Origin: Shewanella sp. NFH-SH190041
Lineage (GTDB): Bacteria > Pseudomonadota > Gammaproteobacteria > Enterobacterales > Shewanellaceae
Length of the DNA stretch: 64,000 nt
Assembly: GCF_024363255.1 (NCBI RefSeq)
Contig: NZ_AP026070.1
Location: 62,001 to 126,000, forward strand
Direction: 5' to 3'
How positions within the stretch are numbered: the stretch's first letter is position 1; every line of letters begins with the position of its first letter. The position numbers and the translations under genes were made by a program. The notes beneath the pieces were generated by a model. That model did not search any database. It had not been told where the DNA came from and saw only the letters and a program-made list of their open reading frames with translations. Shown in pieces: positions 40,584 to 44,344 of the stretch.

Positions 40584-41246
40584 ATGTTGATATTACTGGT
40601 TGAAGACAACAGATTATTGGCAAATAACCTGATTCAGTATTTGGCATTAAATGGTTTGGATTGTGATTATGCGGAAGATATTCAGCAGGCAGAATATTGT
40701 CTTTCCCAGCAGCAGTTCGATGCCATTGTGCTGGATGTGAATTTACCCGATGGCTGTGGTATTTCAGCCTGTGCCCGTTGGAAAGCTCAATGCCAATTAG
40801 CCCCCGTTATTTTGTTGACAGCTCGCAGTGGCCTAGATGACAGATTACAGGGGTTTGCTGCTGGAGCCGATGATTACTTAATTAAACCTTTTGCTATGGC
40901 TGAGTTGGTTGCCAGACTAAAAGCCGTTGCTAAGCGTCACCAAGCCTTGCCGGTGCTACAAGTTGGAGAATTAGAAATTGATTTTGCTCGTCATTGTGCT
41001 TTTCGCCAAGGTGTTGCCTTACAGCTTACCCCTACAGCTTGGCAAATTCTGACGATTCTGGCTCGTAGTAGTCCTAATGTGGTGAGTCGGGAAGAGCTGG
41101 AACGCTCTCTTTGGCCGGATATTCCACCGGATAGTGACAGTTTGCGCAGCCACTTGCATTTGCTACGTCGGGTGGTAGATAAACCCTTTTCATTTAGAAT
41201 GCTGCATACCATTCGTGGGGTTGGCTTATGTCTGAAGGCCTGTTGA
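40584..41246 (+). CDS. OmpR-family response regulator next to the urocanate reductase-type gene
   Basis: A 220-residue transcription factor. The receiver has VEDN at the acidic pocket, acceptor Asp in AIVLDVNLPDGCG, LLTARS and the Lys in LIKPFAM. The C-terminal winged helix includes LQLTPTAWQILTILARSSPNVVSR and DSLRSHLHLLRRVVDKPF, ending TIRGVGLCL. It is one base from the kinase gene and 1.3 kb from the reductase gene, so control of the reductase is likely but inferred from position. The start is ATG 40584. Confidence 0.92.
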   Translation: MLILLVEDNRLLANNLIQYLALNGLDCDYAEDIQQAEYCLSQQQFDAIVLDVNLPDGCGISACARWKAQCQLAPVILLTARSGLDDRLQGFAAGADDYLIKPFAMAELVARLKAVAKRHQALPVLQVGELEIDFARHCAFRQGVALQLTPTAWQILTILARSSPNVVSREELERSLWPDIPPDSDSLRSHLHLLRRVVDKPFSFRMLHTIRGVGLCLKAC

Positions 41247-41247
41247 G

Positions 41248-42477
41248 ATGATGCCCCATTTCAGTCTAAAACGTACCTATCAAATATATGGGCTGATTTT
41301 TTTAGCCGTAACATTAGTGATTAATTGTTTTATTCCTTTGTGCATGATGTGTACAGGTATGTTTTCTATGCATGACATTACGCTGCATAATGCTGGACAA
41401 GCAGCGGAACAAATATTGGTTGATGGCCGTCAATCATGGGCTTCAGATAATATCAGAGTTTATACCACCTGGGATTTAGTGCCTGCTGATATTCGGGCAT
41501 TGAATCAGAATATTCCCCCTAACCGTGAATCAGCTATTCGTTATGCCCATTTAGATGGGGCTTTTATTGATGCTTTATCGGTACATTATACGGCAGCAGG
41601 GCGCCCGCTATATTTATGGCTGCATTACAACGCGACCCATGATTTAGTCTTTGCGCCAAAAAATATGACAGCAATTTTACTTTTAATTCTGATGACCTTT
41701 GGTTTGGTCGCCAGTTTGGCGTTGCACATGCAAAAAAAAGTGATTTATCCGGTACGTCATATTAGCCAAGCAATTAAACAACATGATTGGTTAGGTGGGC
41801 AGGGTTTTAGCTTGCCAAAGCAAGGATATGCTGAGTTACAGGCTATTGTTGATGCGCTTAATCAATCCTTGCAGCAGTTGCAGCAGGTTCAGCAGCGGGA
41901 ATTAGACTTCTTGCGTTATGCCAGTCATGAATTACGCACGCCGGTTGCGATTTGTTTGTCTTCTTTTGAGTTATTAGCACTGCAACATGGTGGGCTGGCT
42001 GGGCCTATATTGGCAGCAAGCCAAGCTTCTGAGCAAATGAAATCAATTATTGAAACACTACTATGGCTAACAAATAAAACCAGTACTGATTCCAAACCAA
42101 CTTCTGTTGCACTTTTGCCTCTGTTACATGAATTAGCCGCACAGCAGGAATTAGCAATGGCCAAGTCAGGTAAGATTAATATTGCTGGCGATAATACTTG
42201 TTGTCAGCTGCTTGCTGATCCCACACGTATTATGCTGAATAATTTAATACGTAATGCGCTGGAGCATGGTTGTGGCTCAGTTGATATTTGCCAACAAGGT
42301 AAATGCATTAAAATCAGTAATCGTATCTTATGCCAAGATCATGCAGGTTTTGGCTTGGGATTGATATTAGTATCCCGTTTGGCTGAACAATTGGGGTGGT
42401 ACTTTTCCACTGAGCGTCAGAATAATCAATTCATTGCCATATTGAAATTAGAGGTTGGTCGCAATTTCTCTTGCTGA
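41248..42477 (+). CDS. Sensor histidine kinase next to the urocanate reductase-type gene
   Basis: A 409-residue membrane kinase. It has a first helix at about 14-36, a periplasmic sensor of about 105 residues, and a second helix at about 142-162. HisKA carries the phosphorylated His in RYASHELRTPVAI. The ATPase domain has an N-box, NNLIRNALEHG, and a G-rich FGLGLILV, but the usual DxGxG segment is replaced by a short ISNRILCQDHAG stretch. Such a compact form occurs in some kinases, but activity should be confirmed. The periplasmic domain matches nothing I recognise; the adjacent enzyme suggests urocanate or a related electron acceptor as signal. Confidence 0.85.
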   Translation: MMPHFSLKRTYQIYGLIFLAVTLVINCFIPLCMMCTGMFSMHDITLHNAGQAAEQILVDGRQSWASDNIRVYTTWDLVPADIRALNQNIPPNRESAIRYAHLDGAFIDALSVHYTAAGRPLYLWLHYNATHDLVFAPKNMTAILLLILMTFGLVASLALHMQKKVIYPVRHISQAIKQHDWLGGQGFSLPKQGYAELQAIVDALNQSLQQLQQVQQRELDFLRYASHELRTPVAICLSSFELLALQHGGLAGPILAASQASEQMKSIIETLLWLTNKTSTDSKPTSVALLPLLHELAAQQELAMAKSGKINIAGDNTCCQLLADPTRIMLNNLIRNALEHGCGSVDICQQGKCIKISNRILCQDHAGFGLGLILVSRLAEQLGWYFSTERQNNQFIAILKLEVGRNFSC

Positions 42478-42480
42478 TTT

Positions 42481-42501
42481 TTACGTAATTTTGACGTAAC
42501 A
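42481..42501 (+). promoter_or_regulatory. Direct repeats upstream of the urocanate reductase-type gene
   Basis: ACGTAA occurs at 42483-42488 and 42494-42499, exactly 11 bases apart, about one helical turn, within the 109-base spacer between kinase and reductase. A CATAAT (42510-42515) ten bases further is a candidate -10 box, so the repeats would overlap the -35 region. This layout suits activation by an OmpR-family regulator, and the gene for one is two genes upstream. Confidence 0.5.
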
Positions 42502-42586
42502 GCGCGCACCATAATTAGCAGATATACAGGTACTTTTTACCTGTGGTGTGTATAGCGTTTGGCGTTATTTCTGCAGGAGATTGACT

Positions 42587-44344
42587 ATGCCATTTAAAAA
42601 ATCTGCCTTGGTGGTTGCGGTTGCCTCATCAGCAATTGTTGCCGGCTGTCATATAACCGGGGAAATAATTAAGGCCCAGGGACAGGCTCAGGGTAAACAT
42701 GGTCCAGTTGTGGTTGAAACAACATTTAAAGATGGCCGGATAACTAAAATTGATGTGTTACAGCAAAAAGAAAATAAAGTCTTAGCTGCAGCAGTGTTTA
42801 AAAATGTAAAACAAAACATTATTGATAAAAACTCTGTGGATGTTGATGGTATCTCCGGTGCGACATTTACATCAAATGCGTTAAAACATGCTGTGGCAAA
42901 TAGTGTTAAAGCTGCAGGAGTAACCTTAGTTGCCGCGAGTGCCGTTGGCGGGAAACAACAAGCGGCTCAACCGACTGATTACACTTATGATGTGGTGGTT
43001 ATTGGCGCGGGTGGTGCGGGATTCAGTGCTGGCTTAGAAGCCATGGAGCAAGGAGCGTCAGCGGTTATCATTGAAAAAATGCCCATTATTGGTGGTAACT
43101 CACTGATCTCCGGGGGGGAGATGAATGTTGCTGGCAGTTGGGTGCAGAAAAACATGGGAATTACTGACTCTAAGGCATTGTTTATGGAAGATACGCTTAA
43201 GGGCGGTGACTATAAAGGGGATCCTGAGATGGTTCGCGCCATGGTTGATAATGCCGTCGATGCATCAGAGTGGTTGCGAGATTATGTGCAAGTTGAGTTT
43301 TACCCTAATCAGTTATTCCAATTCGGTGGTCACAGCGTAAAACGGGCGATTATTCCTAAGGGGCATACTGGGGCAGAGGTGATTGGTAAGTTTGCTAAAA
43401 AAGCTGAATCCGTTGGGCTGCCTGTTCATACGGACACTAAAGCTGAGCGTCTGCTACGAGACAAACATGGTCGCGTGGTTGGGGTTGAGGCGATGAAAAA
43501 TGGCCACAAGGTAACTTATCATGCAAATAAAGGGGTGGTTATCGCAACTGGCGGCTTCTCTGCCAATATTGCAATGCGTAAGAAATTCAATCCAGAGTTA
43601 GATAGTCGTTATGGTACAACCGGTCATGCCGGTGGCACAGGCGACGGAATTGTAATGGCTGAGAAGATACATGCTGACACTAAAAATATGCAGTATATTC
43701 AGACATATCCAATCTGCAATCCTGAAACTGGTGCCATTGAGCTTATTGCTGATGCCCGTTTCTTTGGTGCTATTTTAATTAACCAACAGGGTAATCGTTT
43801 TGTTGAAGAACTGCAGCGTCGTGATGTAATCAGTAATGGTATTTTGAGTCAGCCAGGCAGTTACGCGTATGTTCTGTGGAATAAAGCGATTGATGATGTT
43901 GCTGGTACTGTGGATATGCATCAAGATGAATTTGCTGATCTGAATAGCCGGGGGTTGATGTTTAAAGTTGATACCCTGAAAGAGGCGGCTGAGAAGTTTA
44001 ATATTCCACTGGAAAATCTTGAAAAAACGATTGCTGATGTGAATCGGTATGCTGCATCAGGTAAGGATGAGGCATTCCATCACAGAGCTGGGTTAGTTAA
44101 TCTCGCTAAAGGTCCTTATTGGATTGTTAAAGCAACACCTTCAGTTCACCACACTATGGGGGGCTTAGCAACTGACCCTCGCACCCATGTATTAGATACT
44201 AAAGGTAAGGTGATTCCGGGGCTGTATGCTGCAGGAGAAGTGACTGGTTTGACCCATGGTACTAACCGTTTGGGCGGAAATGCCTACACAGATATCATCG
44301 TGTTTGGTCGTATTGCTGGTATTCAGGCTGCTAGTGGTAAATAA
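42587..44344 (+). CDS. urdA: Urocanate reductase-type flavolipoprotein (FMN-bind plus fumarate reductase-like FAD domain)
   Basis: A 585-residue exported flavoenzyme. The lipoprotein signal has a lipobox IVAGC (Cys21). An FMN-binding domain (about 35-110) follows, with a DGISGATFT motif whose Thr93 is the likely site of covalent FMN. The FAD domain (about 132-585) begins [16 protein letters not shown]. The active-site region differs from fumarate reductase: Tyr374 stands where FccA has His, Asp389 replaces the Thr-Glu pair region, and Arg412 is the catalytic arginine. From memory S. oneidensis urocanate reductase UrdA has Tyr373, Asp388 and Arg411, the same spacing. The expected reaction is anaerobic reduction of urocanate to imidazole propionate with electrons from quinols. 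There is no haem domain. The start ATG 42587 follows CAGGAGA; an upstream frame start at 42548 is rejected. Confidence 0.78.

Follow-up and report, generated by a model that had tools for sequence, protein, structure and literature searches.

A two-component system probably wired to a urocanate reductase gene in Shewanella

The window considered here, a 64,000-nucleotide stretch of the genome of Shewanella sp. NFH-SH190041 (4.37 Mb, three contigs), carries an OmpR-type response regulator, a membrane sensor kinase and a flavoenzyme of the urocanate reductase (UrdA) type. The regulation of urdA by this two-component system, which had been proposed from the letters of the window in an earlier sequence-only reading, is well supported. 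The regulatory link is supported because the genes co-occur (37/37 genomes), because a repeat that is unique in the genome lies before urdA, and because this repeat is concentrated in the urd loci across the genus. Kinase, regulator, site and urdA thus quite probably make up a dedicated and locally wired respiratory switch. It is the circuit that is new and not the enzyme, and the regulator-kinase-urdA arrangement is not unique to the window, as an MR-1-like genome has it too.

In the proposed circuit, the kinase with its small periplasmic sensor would phosphorylate the OmpR-type regulator, which would activate urdA by binding the TTTTACGTAATTTTGACGT repeat that closely follows the kinase gene. 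The product, a predicted periplasm-facing lipoprotein loaded with flavin mononucleotide (FMN) by an ApbE encoded elsewhere, would take electrons from the quinol chain, with CymA/NapC-type cytochromes also encoded elsewhere, and reduce urocanate to imidazole propionate. One ApbE, two NapC/CymA-type cytochromes and a canonical hutH are indeed encoded elsewhere in the genome, hence the strain could load the flavin, supply electrons and form urocanate. We infer the binding of the regulator to the repeat, the activation and the electron route, and also a signal that would be urocanate or a close relative, the redox state, or both. TorSR, TtrSR and DcuSR, the acceptor-responsive two-component systems of respiratory reductases, likewise consist of a sensor kinase and a regulator serving a respiratory reductase, whereas the window kinase has a CxxC sensor of ~107 residues and its partner is OmpR-type. 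The features of the locus are as follows.

40584..41246, plus strand: OmpR/PhoB-family response regulator, 220 aa (open reading frame, ORF, and Pfam)
41248..42477, plus strand: membrane sensor histidine kinase, 409 aa (ORF, motifs, alignment)
41341..41352, plus strand: invariant Cys32-x-x-Cys35 at the outer end of the first transmembrane helix, TM1 (alignment, 37/37 kinases)
41347..41667, plus strand: sensor region between two predicted membrane helices, residues 34-140, ~107 residues (hydropathy)
41926..41928, plus strand: codon of the phospho-acceptor His227, in HELRTP (motif)
42479..42500, plus strand: predicted binding site of the regulator, with half-sites spaced by 11 bp and the core at 42479-42497
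42587..44344, plus strand: predicted UrdA-type urocanate reductase, 585 aa, with lipobox VAGC, FMN_bind and FAD_binding_2
42854..42865, plus strand: FMN attachment motif SGAT (in DGISGAT), with a putative flavinylated Thr (alignment)
43706..43708, plus strand: Tyr374, equivalent to UrdA Tyr373 (alignment)
43751..43753, plus strand: Asp389, equivalent to UrdA Asp388 (alignment)
43820..43822, plus strand: Arg412, equivalent to UrdA Arg411 (alignment)
44366..44411, plus strand: strong terminator-like hairpin, 20 pairs and a U run, in the interval between urdA and the converging pckA

The spacers amount to 1 base between regulator and kinase (41247) and 109 bases between kinase and urdA (42478-42586), the latter counted to the urdA ATG at 42587 although the mechanical ORF call begins earlier, at GTG 42548. 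The hairpin reaches -36 kcal/mol (z -7.9 against 200 shuffles) and is absent from the list of a consensus terminator scan. Coordinates, spacers and hairpin therefore agree with the earlier description of three genes in one direction closed by a strong terminator. The further description of the module as self-contained stands for the window but not for many of its relatives, which add LuxR-type, Tsx-like channel or ApbE genes.

Co-inheritance of the two-component system and UrdA

Regulator and kinase travel together with UrdA through the genus. Orthologues of the kinase were found in 37/129 genus genomes (401-926 bits; next best 114), those of the regulator in the same 37 (at least 301 bits; next best 203), and UrdA in 38, namely all 37 with the two-component system and genome G125. 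Genome G110 has two UrdA copies, and G055 has only part of UrdA in one frame. The distance between system and enzyme varies, with ~6.8 kb in G001 and different contigs in G006 and G078. Sister two-component systems at the 10 loci examined have no UrdA match within the stretches compared; this and the co-occurrence in 37/37 genomes make a neighbourhood by chance unlikely.

Outside the genus the kinase is rare. In an order sample of 394 genomes it was present (E<=1e-40) in nine, all of one family and of two genera; the two genomes of the second genus carry the whole cluster, including the LuxR-type gene, the channel and ApbE. A class sample of 369 genomes yielded UrdA (E<=1e-100) only in the strain's own genome. 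Over 33 loci, the pairwise identities of kinase and regulator correlate at 0.93 and those of sensor and UrdA at 0.67; for example, the lyase-type genomes have a UrdA of the 70-83% class paired with a kinase nearer to the 58-60% class. The regulator consists of a receiver and a winged-helix C-terminal domain (Pfam Response_reg and Trans_reg_C), and its DNA-binding end, DSDxLRxHxHLLR, is conserved over 14 aligned rows.

The predicted regulator-binding repeat

Reading of the spacers revealed a repeated TTTNACGT with an 11-bp step. In the window the whole repeat, TTTNACGTAANTTTNACGT, sits between the kinase gene and urdA, its core separated from the kinase stop by one base and from the urdA ATG by 89 bases. 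The window site matches the pattern perfectly and is the sole match at <=2 mismatches in the 4.37-Mb genome, against 16 matches for the reversed pattern as a control. Within the window, a scan at <=3 mismatches returned this one match only (chance mean 0.53). Across the 129 genus genomes, 56 matches were obtained at <=1 mismatch, of which 38 lie in the urd loci of 27/37 genomes, three elsewhere in the 37 genomes and 15 in 15 of the 92 genomes without the system.

The position of the site differs between loci. At a score of at least 13/16, it is found before the LuxR-type gene in 34/34 loci (shuffles 1.3%), before the reductase operon in 22/34 (shuffles 2.7%; 34 and not 37, as L064, L068 and L081 have no recorded downstream gene) and in none of the 37 kinase-coding controls. 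In 13/19 loci with a UrdA of the 58-60% class there are two stretches of at least 12/16 exactly 42 bp apart. In the three loci that have no LuxR-type gene, the site stands before urdA with 16/17 letters; G093 has it in the kinase-urdA spacer, and in G055 it shares bases with the 3' end of the called kinase ORF. By contrast, seven MR-1-like and five lyase-type loci have the site only before the LuxR-type gene (13-15/17). Therefore the same input seems to be run through a cascade in the MR-1-like group, and the simplest reading would be that control is direct in the lineage of the window and passes through a cascade in MR-1-like strains. G110 has a second UrdA copy with no local two-component system, and the site found 177 bp ahead of the operon of this copy argues for control in trans.

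That the regulator-kinase pair of the window controls its own expression was considered and rejected, as none of the three loci lacking the LuxR-type gene has a site of at least 13/16 ahead of the regulator.

Identity of the reductase

The window enzyme is very likely a urocanate reductase, as the earlier reading had held. Among solved structures it scores highest against urocanate reductase 6t85 (800 bits), with flavocytochrome c3 next (288 bits), and it shares 74% identity with the MR-1-like UrdA and 36% with the strain's own FccA. At all 11 substrate-site residues checked, chosen from the papers on UrdA structure and kinetics (PMC7921117, PMC10882135), the aligned residue is identical with an offset of +1: Glu178, Phe244, Phe246, Tyr374, Asp389, Arg391, Phe392, Arg412, His521, Arg561 and Gly564 correspond to UrdA Glu177, Phe243, Phe245, Tyr373, Asp388, Arg390, Phe391, Arg411, His520, Arg560 and Gly563. 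The three residues named beforehand, Tyr374, Asp389 and Arg412, are thus in place. According to the same papers, Asp388 of UrdA contacts the imidazole (PMC7921117, PMC10882135), and Arg411 is the suggested proton donor (PMC7921117). The FMN attachment motif conforms to the rule [S/T]GA[S/T] given in PMC8238504. Over 38 rows, UrdA position 177 is Glu in 18, Gln in 19 and unreadable in one, and the remaining ten positions agree throughout.

In a tree of 39 rows, the window enzyme pairs with the G093 protein (86/87) inside the UrdA branch (95/98), and the own FccA and another exported reductase fall apart from it. A placement outside the UrdA clade, which would have spoken against the earlier reading, was thus not seen. 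The two outgroup rows have very long branches, and hence the residue and identity evidence outweighs the tree. UrdA of G043 (L068) was counted in the genus search and is missing from the residue table and the tree; that of G055 (S. marina) entered the residue table by its longer piece only (10/11 positions) and was left out of the tree. In the assembly of S. marina JCM 15074 this urdA (L016:7965-9757) is split over two frames, which may be real or a sequencing error.

A fumarate reductase was rejected as the identity of the window enzyme on residues and tree. FccA belongs to the same flavoprotein family but carries a heme domain where UrdA has the FMN domain. The strain's own copy (L092) has CxxCH motifs visible at its start. 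The contrast drawn earlier, by which fumarate reductases have His and a Thr-Glu pair at the places of Tyr and Asp, survives in its first part, as His occupies the Tyr373 position in the own FccA; the Thr-Glu pair is matched only roughly, the Asp column holding an Ala where the alignment is uncertain.

Gene neighbourhoods in the relatives

Forty stretches were compared, with Pfam names taken from one member each. A frequent arrangement runs from the LuxR-type gene through regulator, kinase and Tsx-like channel to urdA. The LuxR-type gene precedes the regulator in 34/37 loci, the exceptions being the window, G093 and G055; the channel gene is represented by 30 ORFs in the clusters, and an ApbE gene follows urdA in 15 loci. 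The MR-1-like locus L071 (genome G065), which is probably that of S. oneidensis MR-1, has its LuxR-type (GerE) regulator gene at 8736-9572 on the minus strand. Its UrdA has 582 aa, as does SO_4620 in a table of PMC4427408. The UrdA of MR-1 (SO_4620, PDB 6t85) and the window enzyme are alike in active-site residues, domains and lipobox. Unlike the MR-1-like cluster, that of the window has neither the LuxR-type gene nor the Tsx-like channel gene, and its predicted site is directly before urdA and not before the LuxR-type gene.

A second motif, TTAAACCACA, lies before the channel/reductase operons and matches with 9 or 10 of 10 letters in all seven MR-1-like loci and with 7, 7 and 8 of 10 letters in the three that lack the LuxR-type gene. 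The match is only 8/10 in several loci that do have this gene. The motif, noticed after the fact, is only a lead for the LuxR-type protein.

Weighing of the circuit and its alternatives

Several results weigh against the circuit as proposed. The related genomes are not independent counts, and the consensus of the site was derived by eye on the very loci that were scored, so the per-locus scores are partly circular and the whole-genome scans less so. Ten of the 37 genomes, including all seven MR-1-like ones, have no locus match at <=1 mismatch, and before the reductase operon the MR-1-like and the five lyase-type loci have no match of at least 13/17 (10-12/17). In the window there is no site of at least 13/16 ahead of the regulator gene, and a scan of the window found no sigma-70-like promoter before urdA; the latter fits an activator-dependent promoter without proving it. 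As for the kinase, Pfam returned only HisKA, at 26.6 bits and just below the cut-off of 26.9, with no HATPase_c match at E<=0.001, and the canonical DxGxG (G1 box) was not found in it, an invariant Asn358 standing near its place. However, the HELRTP box, the His of which is the phospho-acceptor in this kinase family, is found in 37/37 kinases, and the N-box residues and the GFGLG box in 36/37, the remaining kinase being cut by a contig end. The conservation of Asn332, Asn358 and GFGLG therefore suggests a functional though divergent kinase. That the two-component system merely adjoins urdA and regulates something else could be argued from the 109-base spacer that sets urdA off and from G125, which has UrdA without the system. 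With UrdA in all 37 genomes that have the system, and the only close site match of the own genome at urdA, this explanation is very improbable.

As the signal for the kinase, the earlier reading had named urocanate or the lack of a better electron acceptor in the periplasm, and both are candidates. Hydropathy places the sensor between hydrophobic stretches at ~13-35 and 140-161. An AlphaFold2 model of residues 30-146, of medium confidence (mean predicted local distance difference test score, pLDDT, 70.9; predicted template modelling score, pTM, 0.66), shows a mixed helix/strand fold with a long helix, several strands and a hairpin, whose size and make-up recall Cache/PDC sensors; no sequence relative was found among PDB chains at E<=1. 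SO4623 is taken here to be the MR-1 counterpart of the window regulator. The kinase may read the redox state or a shortage of acceptors, by Cys32-Cys35 or by quinones, and urdA would then be switched on in anoxia whatever the substrate. The motif PLCxxCxGxxSMH is present in 37/37 kinases, with its CxxC placed at the outer end of TM1, and was not seen in the N-terminal 75 residues of 10 sister kinases. Moreover, SO4623 is reported to be induced under anaerobic iron-reducing conditions, according to an unpublished microarray mentioned in PMC2667191. The invariant CxxC together with three invariant His residues in the sensor thus makes redox sensing a rival of urocanate sensing, even if one somewhat on the doubtful side. 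Against it, the invariant His42, His101, His131, Trp75 and Trp124 of the aligned kinases and the predicted folded domain exceed what a bare redox switch would need. Urocanate sensing agrees with the gene content, and the CxxC and the anaerobic induction reported for SO4623 are in keeping with redox sensing; both signals may act.

An alternative on the side of the substrate is that signal and substrate are not urocanate, or not urocanate only, but thiourocanate, or urocanate formed in the periplasm from histidine betaines such as ergothioneine and hercynine. A lyase that is nearest to ergothionase and, in the four copies examined, has no Ala-Ser-Gly triad for the methylidene-imidazolone (MIO) cofactor stands in the UrdA locus of 11/129 genomes, and the closer ergothionase relative of the strain's own genome adjoins an exported flavin reductase. 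Nevertheless, there is no such lyase beside the window unit, of the 37 genomes with the system 10 carry it in the locus and 27 do not (the eleventh lyase is that of G125), the strain has a canonical hutH, and MR-1 UrdA is described as acting on urocanate (PMC7921117, PMC10882135). This alternative is on the unlikely side.

Lyases and histidine betaines

The locus lyase of the 11 genomes (at least 797 bits) is an aromatic-lyase-family protein (Pfam Lyase_aromatic, one copy) with, by eye, a signal-peptide-like start. Its best solved match is ergothionase with 228 bits, and the next, the best ammonia-lyase, reaches 151; the own hutH has GSVGASG where the four lyase copies have no triad. Copies in named Shewanella records are L009:2167-3825, L011:6086-7795, L012:6089-7798 and L013:6121-7797, and include those of S. 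carassii and S. schlegeliana. The ergothionase of Treponema denticola (6s7j), the best solved relative, has no MIO triad either; the Shewanella lyase differs from it in its signal-peptide-like start, it is not in the window, and its activity is predicted. In line with this, a 2026 report describes an ergothionase without MIO and growth of Bacteroides xylanisolvens on thiourocanic acid (PMC13405746). As the lyase nearest to ergothionase stands in UrdA loci, histidine betaines may be the substrate source, and for the genus they are a plausible source of respiratory acceptors.

A canonical MIO histidine ammonia-lyase as the periplasmic source of urocanate was rejected for the lyase of the relatives, as the triad is absent from the four copies examined. 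The closer ergothionase relative of the own genome (283 against 153 bits) is MIO-free and also starts like a signal peptide; it comes directly after an exported flavin reductase, the two genes together spanning ~1568122-1571357 on C1 (L091:6123-9358). The reductase has a twin-arginine translocation (Tat)-like start, 35% identity to UrdA and different substrate-site residues, and the two are a candidate pair for ergothioneine respiration.

These elements might belong to a shared periplasmic module for the respiration of imidazole acrylates. An exported MIO-free lyase would form thiourocanate or urocanate by splitting trimethylamine from ergothioneine or hercynine, the Tsx-like channel would admit the substrates, UrdA would respire the product, and the CxxC/His kinase would read imidazole acrylate as well as redox and act via one OmpR-type site, the window being a pared-down and directly wired form. 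As a whole, this scheme is speculative and rather improbable.

Significance and surroundings of the window

Urocanate reduction yields imidazole propionate, which is elevated in patients with type 2 diabetes and makes mice less tolerant of glucose (PMC7921117). The literature searched yielded nothing on what turns urdA on, although earlier UrdA papers (Bogachev 2012, Kees 2019) could describe neighbouring regulators, and no paper joining urocanate, urdA, two-component and sensor histidine kinase. PMC9257041 has a transcriptome table of expression changes with urdA and, separately, histidine-kinase and response-regulator genes. With a named regulator, a kinase and a 19-bp site, apparently present in the tractable MR-1 as well, the control of urdA becomes directly testable. 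The site before urdA in the window, G093 and G055, and before the LuxR-type gene in the MR-1-like and lyase-type loci, offers a compact case of regulatory rewiring. The lyase of 11 relatives points to histidine betaines as compounds from which respiratory acceptors may be drawn.

The surroundings of the unit hold other features. A GGDEF-EAL protein with a nitrate/nitrite-sensing (NIT) domain and a PAS domain is encoded nearby at 34345-37626 (minus strand), and an FMN riboswitch lies ahead of ribB at 38792-38972 (minus strand), ~1.6 kb from the regulator gene. Farther away there is a molybdenum cofactor riboswitch (Rfam RF01055) at 21788-21923. Two neighbouring genes, chemoreceptor-like by eye, are at 5032-6726 and 7419-9002; the former begins in a stretch of 33% G+C (4001-6000) and is split by a stop into two same-frame ORFs, and the latter is whole.

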